DNA from: an uncultured Phycisphaerales bacterium
GTDB taxonomy: Bacteria; Planctomycetota; Phycisphaerae; Phycisphaerales; UBA1924
NCBI GenBank assembly: GCA_937871915.1
Contig: CALMPG010000134.1
Coordinates: 62,001-126,000, forward strand
DNA: 64,000 bases
Direction of reading: 5' to 3'
Positions 38,027-50,679 of the stretch are shown here, one piece after another. Each line of letters starts with the position of its first letter. The stretch's first letter is position 1. Under the pieces are notes generated by a model, which worked only from the letters and a program-made list of their open reading frames with translations, ran no database searches and was not told where the DNA came from. Position numbers and translations under genes: made by a program.

Positions 38027-38647
38027 TCATTGCGCCGCGATGGAGGCCTTGCGGATCTTGGCGGCAAACGCGGTGCGACGGTCGGCCTGACGACGACGGG
38101 TCGAGGGACGACCGCCGATCTCGGGGCCTTCCTCCGCGCCGACGAACTGGATCAGGCAGATCTCGCCACCATCGCCGATGCGGGCCTTCTGGAGCTTGAC
38201 AATGCGGGTGTACCCGCCCGCCCGATCCTTGAACCGCGGGGCGACGTTCTCGAAAATGTGCTTGACGAGCTTCGGGGCCTTGCGCAGCTCGCCGTAGCGG
38301 TTGCGCTCGACCTTGGCGCCGTCGGGGATTGCGAAGTACTTCTCGGCCCGGTCGCGAAGCGCGGCCACGGCGTCCTTCTCCGCGTCCGTCGCGGACTTGG
38401 AAAGGTACAGCCAGTCGAAGGCGAGCTTGTCGCCGCCGAGCTTGGCGATCACCCGACGGCGGGCGGCCACGGTGCCCTCCTTGGCGTCGGTGACGATCTT
38501 CTCCACGAACGGCTGGAGGCACTTGGCCTTCGGGACGGTCGTGGTGATCTGGCCGTGCTGGAACAGACCCAGCGCAAGGTTGCGCAGGGTGGAAGCCCGG
38601 TGAGCGGTCGTGCGACCGAGTCGATATCCGCCTCTACGGTGACGCAT
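38027..38647 (-). CDS. rplQ: 50S ribosomal protein bL17, enlarged
   Basis: bL17 binds 23S rRNA near the exit tunnel. The 206-residue product starts MRHRRGGYRLGRTTAHR and has ITTTVPKAKCLQPFVEKIVTDAKEGT and AGGYTRIVKL. The E. coli protein has 127 residues; here about 57 residues (LGGDKLAFDWLYLSKSATDA...) are inserted before the FENVAPRFKDR block, and a basic tail of about 35 residues is added. It is the last gene of the cluster, 24 bp after rpoA. Confidence 0.96.
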   Translation of the reverse strand: MRHRRGGYRLGRTTAHRASTLRNLALGLFQHGQITTTVPKAKCLQPFVEKIVTDAKEGTVAARRRVIAKLGGDKLAFDWLYLSKSATDAEKDAVAALRDRAEKYFAIPDGAKVERNRYGELRKAPKLVKHIFENVAPRFKDRAGGYTRIVKLQKARIGDGGEICLIQFVGAEEGPEIGGRPSTRRRQADRRTAFAAKIRKASIAAQ

Positions 38648-48128: not shown

Positions 48129-48524
48129 TTACTTGCTCGCCTTGGCCGTCCTGGCCGACTTGGCGGATCGGGCCGACGCGCCCGCCTTCCGCGGGGTCTT
48201 CGCGGCCGTGGCCTTGGGGGGCGCCTTGGGCGCGGGCTTGGCCGGGGCCTTGGCCCGCTTGCCCGCCGCGGCGGGGGAGCGGGGGGCTCGCGGGGCGCTG
48301 GGCTCGCCGGTGCCGGCGCGGCCGCGGGCGTTCTGCTCGGTCAGGATCCTCGCGATGTTCCGCTTGGTGATCCCGAACTGCGAGACGTCCTCGACCTTCT
48401 CGGTGACCGACTGCGAGCGGAGCGTGTACATCCGCTCCCGCAGCGCGTTGAGCTCGATGCCGAGCTCCTCGCCCGTCATCTTCTTCACCTTCTCGGCGAA
48501 CGTCTTTTCCTGGTGCTTGGCCAT
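48129..48524 (-). CDS. rpmC: 50S ribosomal protein uL29 with histone-like tail
   Basis: uL29 forms the tunnel-exit docking site for trigger factor and SRP. The core (MAKHQEKTFAEKVKKMTGEE ... LRERMYTLRSQSVTEKVEDV ... RNIARILTEQ) covers about 70 residues. A further 60 residues of Ala/Lys/Pro/Arg (AGKRAKAPAKPAPKAPPKAT) follow, giving 131 residues against 63 in E. coli. The tail resembles histone H1-like low-complexity sequence and would project at the tunnel exit. Confidence 0.94.
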   Translation of the reverse strand: MAKHQEKTFAEKVKKMTGEELGIELNALRERMYTLRSQSVTEKVEDVSQFGITKRNIARILTEQNARGRAGTGEPSAPRAPRSPAAAGKRAKAPAKPAPKAPPKATAAKTPRKAGASARSAKSARTAKASK

Positions 48525-49039: not shown

Positions 49040-49744
49040 TCAGCGACGACCACGGGCACGCGCCCGTCCGCCAGCCGCCTTGGACTCGGCCTCGTCGGCC
49101 TCGCCCTGCTTGTACATCCCCTTGTAGACCCACACCTGCACGCCGATCATGCCGTAGGACATCAGCGCCTCCGCCGTGCCGTAGTCGATGTGCGCCTGCA
49201 GCGTGGAGAGCGGCAGCGAGCCCAGACGCATGTCCAGCGTCCGGCTCATCTCCGCCCCGCCCAGACGGCCGGCCATCTGGATCTTCACGCCCTGGGCCCC
49301 CGCGGCCATCACCGCGTCGGCCTTCATCTTCATGGCGCGACGGAAGGCCACGCGCTTCTTGAGCTGGTCGGCCACGCCCTCGGCGATCAGCTTCGCCTCG
49401 ATGTCCGGGTTCTTGATCTCGAGGATCGAGATCGAGACCTTGCGGCCCGTCTGCAGCTGCAGCTCCTCGGTCAGGCGGTCCACCTCGGCCCCTTTGGGCC
49501 CGATCACCAGGCCCGGGCGGGCCGTCTTGATGATCACCTTGAGCTCCTCGCGGGTGCGCTCGATGTGGATGTCGCTCACCGCGGCGTGCGGTGGCTGGCG
49601 GTTGAGCCGCTTGTCCAGGAAGCGGCGGATCTTCTCGTCCTCGATGAGCAACTCGCCGTACACCGCCTTGGGGGCGTACCAGCGCGAGCGGTGGGCCTCG
49701 GTGATGCCGACGCGGAAGCCGAATGGTTGGGTCTTCTGTCCCAT
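49040..49744 (-). CDS. rpsC: 30S ribosomal protein uS3
   Basis: uS3 lines the mRNA entry tunnel. The 234-residue product begins MGQKTQPFGFRVGITEAHRS and has the KH domain (KTARPGLVIGPKGAEVDRLT), GVADQLKKRVAFRRAMKMKA and VWVYKGMYKQGEADEA. It starts 2 nt after the rplV stop, as in most S10 operons. Confidence 0.98.
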   Translation of the reverse strand: MGQKTQPFGFRVGITEAHRSRWYAPKAVYGELLIEDEKIRRFLDKRLNRQPPHAAVSDIHIERTREELKVIIKTARPGLVIGPKGAEVDRLTEELQLQTGRKVSISILEIKNPDIEAKLIAEGVADQLKKRVAFRRAMKMKADAVMAAGAQGVKIQMAGRLGGAEMSRTLDMRLGSLPLSTLQAHIDYGTAEALMSYGMIGVQVWVYKGMYKQGEADEAESKAAGGRARARGRR

Positions 49745-49746
49745 GA

Positions 49747-50313
49747 TTACTTCCGCTCCTCCAGACCAATGGTGATGTGTGCCATGCGCTTGAGAATGGG
49801 GTGGGCCCGGCCGCGGTCCTTGGGCTGGAACCGCTTCATCCGCGGCGCATCCCCGACCGTCGACTGCGAGACCACCAGCGACTCCACGTCCGCCTCGGCC
49901 AGCTGGGCCTCGGCGAAGGCCGCGTTCAGGGCCTTCTTGATGTCCACCGCCGCCCGCTTGGTGGTGAACGTCAGCAGGTTCAGGGCGGTGTCGTACTTCT
50001 TGCCGCGGATCAGGTCCACGAGCAGCTTGGCCTTGCGGGGCGAGCCCCGGTGGTACTTATAGATGGAGGTGAACGACGCGATGTCCGCGACGGTGCATCC
50101 GAGCGCACCGGCCAGGCCCACGATGTCCTCGCGCTTGCAGCGCGGGTGGTCGCGTCCTCGCATCCAGTTCTGCACCGCGCTGGCGGCGCGGTCCCCGGCC
50201 AGGCCGGTCCGCTCGATCGCCTGCGCGAGCTGCTCCACGCCCAGCCCCTTGGCCGCGGCGACTTTCACCAGATTGGGTCCGTTGATCTTCACGGTGTCAT
50301 CCTCGATCTGCAT
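49747..50313 (-). CDS. rplV: 50S ribosomal protein uL22 fused to an N-terminal XRE-like helix-turn-helix domain
   Basis: Residues of about 82-188 are uL22: YHRGSPRKAKLLVDLIRGKK, FTTKRAAVDIKKALNAAFAE, GDAPRMKRFQPKDRGRAHPI and HITIGLEERK. The first 78 residues, absent from standard uL22 (110 residues), read as an XRE/Cro-type helix-turn-helix: LVKVAAAKGLGVEQLAQAIE, ASAVQNWMRGRDHPRC, EDIVGLAGALGCTVADIA. The NW-x-RGR-x-x-P turn followed by D-I-x-x-LA-x-ALG is characteristic. Frame is uninterrupted and base composition uniform with the rest. ATG at 50313 is preferred; a GTG at 50322 is in frame. A hairpin sits 2 nt upstream of the ATG. The domain may bind rRNA or mRNA, or mediate autoregulation; this is inference. 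Confidence 0.93.
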   Translation of the reverse strand: MQIEDDTVKINGPNLVKVAAAKGLGVEQLAQAIERTGLAGDRAASAVQNWMRGRDHPRCKREDIVGLAGALGCTVADIASFTSIYKYHRGSPRKAKLLVDLIRGKKYDTALNLLTFTTKRAAVDIKKALNAAFAEAQLAEADVESLVVSQSTVGDAPRMKRFQPKDRGRAHPILKRMAHITIGLEERK

Positions 50314-50315
50314 CG

Positions 50316-50340
50316 GTGGCACGGGCGCTGAGCCCGTGAG
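50316..50340. repeat. Palindromic repeat, family E copy 1
   Basis: ggtggcacgggc followed by gcccgtgag forms a 7-bp stem (cacgggc 50320-50326 / gcccgtg 50332-50338) directly before the rplV start. The ggtggcacggg word recurs at 56135-56178. Confidence 0.7.
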
Positions 50341-50370: not shown

Positions 50371-50679
50371 TCACTTGTTCCCCGCCGGCGCTCCGGTGGC
50401 CCCGCCCTCGATGCCTTCCTTCTTGTTCGTGTGCCCGCGGAACGTGCGGGTGTTCGAGAACTCGCCCAGCTTGTGCCCCACCATGTCCTCGGTGATGAAC
50501 ACGTCGTTGAACTTGTTCCCGTTGTGCACCTTGAAGGTGTGCCCGATGAACTCGGGAACGATCGTGCACGCGCGCTTCCACGTCTTGAGCGGCTCGCGCT
50601 TGCCCATCTGGTTGAGCCTCTCGGCCCGACGAAACAGTCGCTCGTCCACGTACGGTCCCTTCTTGCTGCTGCGGCTCAT
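50371..50679 (-). CDS. rpsS: 30S ribosomal protein uS19
   Basis: uS19 is a head protein that pairs with uS13. The 102-residue product begins [20 protein letters not shown] and has [42 protein letters not shown] and RGHTNKK. A short Gly/Ala tail is added. Confidence 0.98.

Follow-up and report, generated by a model that had tools for sequence, protein, structure and literature searches.

A Cro/CI-type helix-turn-helix domain on ribosomal protein uL22 of Phycisphaerae and its possible place on the large ribosomal subunit

Every ribosome contains the protein uL22, part of the wall of the protein exit tunnel. In the window (the whole stretch of DNA analysed, 64,000 nucleotides from an uncultured Phycisphaerales bacterium) the uL22 gene, rplV, continues upstream in frame into a segment resembling the helix-turn-helix (HTH) domains of Cro-like regulators. 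This locus raises the questions of whether the segment is a translated part of the protein, how widely it occurs among relatives and which role a fold of the transcription-factor type could have on a ribosomal protein.

The rplV gene and its translation start

The longest rplV open reading frame (49747-50322, minus strand) is flanked in the S10 operon by rpsS (uS19; 50371..50679, minus strand) upstream and rpsC (uS3; 49040..49744, minus strand) downstream, the gene order of this operon being retained. The C-terminal 110 residues of the product form a complete uL22, which reaches 105.4 bits with Ribosomal_L22 (PF00237; cut-off 28, matching residues 89-187 of the longest frame) and 91.3 bits with TIGR01044, above its cut-off of 73.65. 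No second uL22 gene was found in the genome of the window and, with few exceptions, the sampled genomes of the class have one copy; both the single copy and the position between rpsS and rpsC identify the product as uL22.

Judging from aligned sequences, translation most likely starts at the GTG at 50290..50292 (minus strand) rather than at ATG 50313. A Shine-Dalgarno-like GAGGA (50300..50304, minus strand) lies 7 nt before the GTG, while ATG 50313 lacks such a site and lies shortly after a hairpin. The start position is conserved: in relatives the extension begins at one homologous codon, which precedes the core by 72 codons in most members of the window's family and by 69-75 codons in nearly all remaining relatives, 71 and 69 being the values of other families. 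The codon is usually GTG within the family (ATG in L017, L028 and L055) and ATG in the members of families f4 and f13-f27 examined, and is usually preceded by GAGG or AGGA. From this start the fusion gene spans 49747..50292 (minus strand; 181 codons and the stop). In alignments, residue 1 of E. coli-type uL22 and of solved, standard uL22 chains falls on residue 72 of the 181-residue protein, and therefore the extra part comprises residues 1-71 (50080..50292, minus strand) and uL22 proper residues 72-181 (49747..50079 with the stop, minus strand). The sequence-only reading had counted about 78 extra residues from ATG 50313; the extension stands, and its length is corrected to 71 by the aligned starts.

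The 7-bp hairpin between rpsS and rplV (50320..50338, minus strand), previously placed 2 nt before the start codon, is separated from ATG 50313 by 6 nt and from GTG 50292 by 27 nt. In relatives, the rpsS-rplV spacers, about -4 to 124 nt long, share no structure and hold no counterpart of the hairpin at a fixed place; a regulatory role of this unconserved and probably incidental element was therefore rejected.

Could translation begin at the uL22 core, the upstream frame being an artefact of annotation? The fact that the window's HTH on its own falls under the Pfam cut-off would agree with this, but the start codons aligned 69-75 codons upstream in relatives, usually with Shine-Dalgarno sites, argue against it, as does the distance from rpsS to the core, which is 17-107 nt in families without the HTH and 212-340 nt in bearers. 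In a few genomes, L126 and L161 among them, the end of rpsS touches the rplV start or extends about 4 nt past it, which makes the HTH segment part of the translated unit. At the codon level, dN/dS values of the HTH segment are mostly 0.03-0.4, below 1 and higher than those of the uL22 core, and point to purifying selection weaker than that on the core. An annotation artefact can thus be practically dismissed.

The predicted fold of the extension

Searched alone, the window's extension gives 20.1 bits with HTH_31 (PF13560; E 8e-4), which does not reach the Pfam cut-off of 27 bits. The profile evidence for an HTH comes instead from the relatives: 25 of 40 extensions match HTH_31 at E<0.01 (best E 6.5e-8), 10 match HTH_26 and 6 match HTH_3, and by these sequences the extension is not assignable to any one Pfam HTH family. 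Structure prediction with AlphaFold2 yields a five-helix HTH (residues 5-15, 19-26, 34-44, 54-64 and 68-71) with a mean pLDDT of 95.6, and of 91.5 over the whole protein. In the model, helix 5 passes linker-free and with high pLDDT at the junction into the first uL22 strand. Helices 2 and 3 are connected by 7 residues, and by the profile alignment, in which 58 residues cover 50 positions, this linker exceeds the length expected by HTH_31 by about 7 residues. The predicted domain superposes on solved Cro/CI members over about 60-66 residues at 1.5-2.3 A, with Z of 8-9.9 (C.Csp231I 9.9, P22 c2 9.6, C.AhdI 9.4, SinR 9.0, 434 Cro 8.4), and its Foldseek matches include yeast Mbf1 (9f9s). Motifs, profiles, model and structure comparison agree with the proposal of an XRE/Cro-like HTH fused in frame to a complete uL22, and the predicted structure confirms a Cro/CI-type (lambda-repressor-like) five-helix fold.

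Helix 3 (residues 34-44; 50161..50193, minus strand) occupies the position of the recognition helix and contains N42 and W43, which are invariant or nearly so in both clades of bearers described below. The conserved residues that the two clades share and that are probably exposed, as judged from the fold, are K/R7, R28, K/R41 and N42 (98-100%), and mean net charge is +3 to +5 across clades. W43 and P50, invariant, and G46, near-invariant, may be merely fold residues of this superfamily.

A standard uL22 core with a terminal segment also occurs in chloroplast uL22c, in the uL22 of Deinococcus and Mycobacterium and in NCBIfam NF008917, a model of L22 fused to an unknown domain. Similarity to NF008917 is confined to the uL22 core, which alone gives 55.9 bits, far from the cut-off of 526 over 311 positions. 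Chloroplast ribosomal protein extensions are reported to be mostly extended chains (PMC5071890), whereas this one is predicted to be folded. No solved uL22 chain bearing this HTH extension was found by sequence.

Distribution and history of the fusion

The extension is conserved family-wide, contrary to the lack of conservation in relatives that would have spoken against it, being present in every full-match relative of the same family in the first survey. In the class survey the same 397 genomes were searched for the HTH and for uL22, and the two output lists were matched by eye: HTH-uL22 occurs in 138/138 uL22-bearing sampled genomes of nine Phycisphaerae families (f1 45, f4 3, f13 7, f18 5, f20 24, f23 41, f24 11, f26 1, f27 1) and in 0/240 genomes of the remaining 19 families. 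The one further HTH match in the class (G049) is an unrelated 497-aa ORF. Outside the class, the sample of the phylum Planctomycetota gave just four weak matches, all of them unrelated ORFs. The best 80 matches in a full-length scan of named genomes belong nearly all to Phycisphaerales, Phycisphaerae or Planctomycetota records, and the named records in which the fusion occurs are MAGs of Phycisphaerales and Planctomycetota. Two records titled Cyanobacteria bacterium CYA (L110) and Leptolyngbya sp. PLA1 (L128) carry ribosomal operons of the Phycisphaerales type and are probably mislabelled bins.

A four-protein tree places the bearers in two regions with families lacking the domain between them, and its well supported branches require at least two changes in domain presence. 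The HTHs of the two clades are clearly homologous (70 columns gap-free, E 1.6e-26, 41% identity), whereas the uL22 cores differ, each clade forming its own group (99/85). On the basis of these two separate groups of cores, a transfer of the complete gene from one clade to the other was rejected, with the one-clade hypothesis rejected by a narrow margin (p-AU 0.03). The alternatives are an exchange of the gene's 5' part and an ancestral fusion that was repeatedly lost. An apparent case of domain loss in an f4 genome (L037 of G051, on a long contig) was discarded: the frame breaks inside the HTH and the two halves continue in different frames, which is probably an assembly error. L073, L069, L063 and other f13-f27 loci carry, close to the tunnel-hairpin tip of the uL22 core, an insertion (..DGAGRRIGTKRW.. 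as against ..DEGPTMKRF..) that is not present in the window's clade.

Possible roles of the domain on the ribosome

We consider it moderately probable that the HTH is an accessory domain constitutively present on the 50S surface, on the side of the tunnel exit, and holds rRNA or a neighbouring protein. A translated Cro/CI-type HTH would have become a fixed component of the large subunit in two Phycisphaerae clades, displayed on its solvent surface beside the tunnel-exit ring of uL22, uL23, uL24 and uL29. The helix-3 face would most likely contact an rRNA helix close by or a neighbouring ribosomal protein, and this contact may stabilise that region of the subunit or form part of the exit platform. 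Because the cell has no other uL22 and the HTH leads directly into residue 1 of uL22, the domain should be exposed on each 50S, and we infer that every ribosome carries it unless it is cleaved off; its presence in mature ribosomes, location, rRNA partner and function are inferred as well. This reading is supported by family-wide retention (all bearer families against none of the others), the single copy with its exact linker-free junction, purifying selection, and conserved K/R7, R28, K/R41 and N42 together with the positive mean charge. The sequence-only suggestion of a lineage-specific ribosome element accords with the HTH profiles, the predicted fold and the family-bound distribution. The net charge is only modestly positive, which counts against the proposal.

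A precedent that further supports it is EDF1/Mbf1, whose Cro/C1 HTH is sandwiched between 18S h16 and h33, and the HTH of archaeal MBF1 binds 30S/70S (PMC7486125). In eukaryotes and archaea this type of HTH thus serves as a ribosome- and rRNA-binding module, as is proposed here by analogy, which makes binding of rRNA at the exit, one of the roles suggested from the sequence, plausible. MBF1/EDF1 is, however, a separate and transient small-subunit factor with an MBF1 or zinc-ribbon domain, whereas in HTH-uL22 the HTH belongs to a constitutive large-subunit protein, its first helix starts at residue 5 with no such domain before it, and uL22 follows behind.

Among 23 full 23S genes no position or indel separates bearers from non-bearers, so that no rRNA co-adaptation is seen, which counts against the accessory-domain reading. 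Compensation for lost rRNA was rejected, as indels in 23S (the regions of E. coli 261-300 and 1480-1520) are not distributed like the HTH, and so was replacement of a missing neighbour, since both bL32 and bL17 occur in each of the 25 genomes tested, with or without the HTH. The 23S genes of L184 and other f1 members are short, about 2750 nt, and lack sequence at E. coli 261-300, 1480-1520 and elsewhere, and that of L169 (G077) has about 290 additional nucleotides near E. coli position 1861-1880. In the window, bL17 (38141-38587, minus strand) is interrupted by about 40 inserted codons, its profile match falling into two parts (positions 2-53 and 46-97), and is of similar length in f1, f2, f8 and f22 and not in f18, f20 and f23; uL29 (48129-48524, minus strand), which likewise sits at the tunnel exit, has a low-complexity C-terminal tail, about 65 residues long and with much Ala, Lys and Pro.

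Autoregulation is common among operons of ribosomal proteins, and free HTH-uL22 could use the HTH to bind S10-operon DNA or mRNA and repress the operon when ribosomal proteins are in excess. The predicted Cro/CI fold, shared with phage repressors and restriction controllers (P22 c2, 434 Cro, C.Csp231I, C.AhdI), and the invariant N42 at the recognition-helix position would suit such a role. Those proteins bind operators; here, the rpsS-rplV spacer holds no conserved element. No palindrome common to the rpsJ leaders of the window and 20 genomes was found, the palindromes present being sporadic, differently placed and mostly at chance level, for which reason they were rejected as an operator, and an Rfam search for a leader element gave no match. 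The lack of a conserved operator palindrome in the leaders is weak negative evidence on DNA binding of the repressor type. Helix 5 is the usual pairing site of Cro/CI-type repressors, and its fusion to uL22, together with the longer turn between helices 2 and 3, argues against a free dimeric repressor. Operon regulation, as put forward from the sequence, is thus unsupported; it appears improbable, and a DNA regulator is less likely than an accessory ribosomal domain.

Rather than rRNA, the domain might recruit a clade-specific factor for chaperoning, targeting, quality control or hibernation to the exit site. Factors dock at the exit-site ring to which uL22 belongs (PMC5071890), the domain is not tracked by any rRNA change and it is common to lineages with differing uL22 cores; on the other hand, no partner was identified, and the occurrence of bL32 and bL17 regardless of the domain indicates that the HTH does not replace them. 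We regard this as unlikely, though it ranks directly after a surface domain and before autoregulation, an order that follows from the lack of an operator or leader, the long turn, the helix-5 junction and the 23S comparison. That the extension is translated and then removed by proteolysis, or kept as a passive neutral appendage, would be compatible with its weaker constraint and with several sister families lacking it, but its retention throughout nine families, the fold-determining residues kept across deep divergence and dN/dS well under 1 make this quite improbable. Very improbable, finally, is binding of nucleic acid in trans (chromosomal DNA, nascent mRNA or the rRNA of another ribosome), by which the exit face would tether ribosomes to the nucleoid or transcript.

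No published report of an HTH-bearing uL22 was found in the open-licence literature and, to our knowledge, this domain on uL22 was previously undescribed; extensions of ribosomal proteins are already known, and what is new is a complete HTH of the transcription-factor type on uL22. If a surface domain of this kind is permanently present in whole families, this would show the bacterial ribosome to be capable of recruiting transcription-factor folds, which would act as structural or docking parts in parallel to Mbf1/EDF1. Related families with and without the domain offer a clean contrast for probing the role of exit-site extensions and, if the domain is not cleaved, every ribosome of these cells would carry a DNA-binding-type domain near the exit of nascent proteins.
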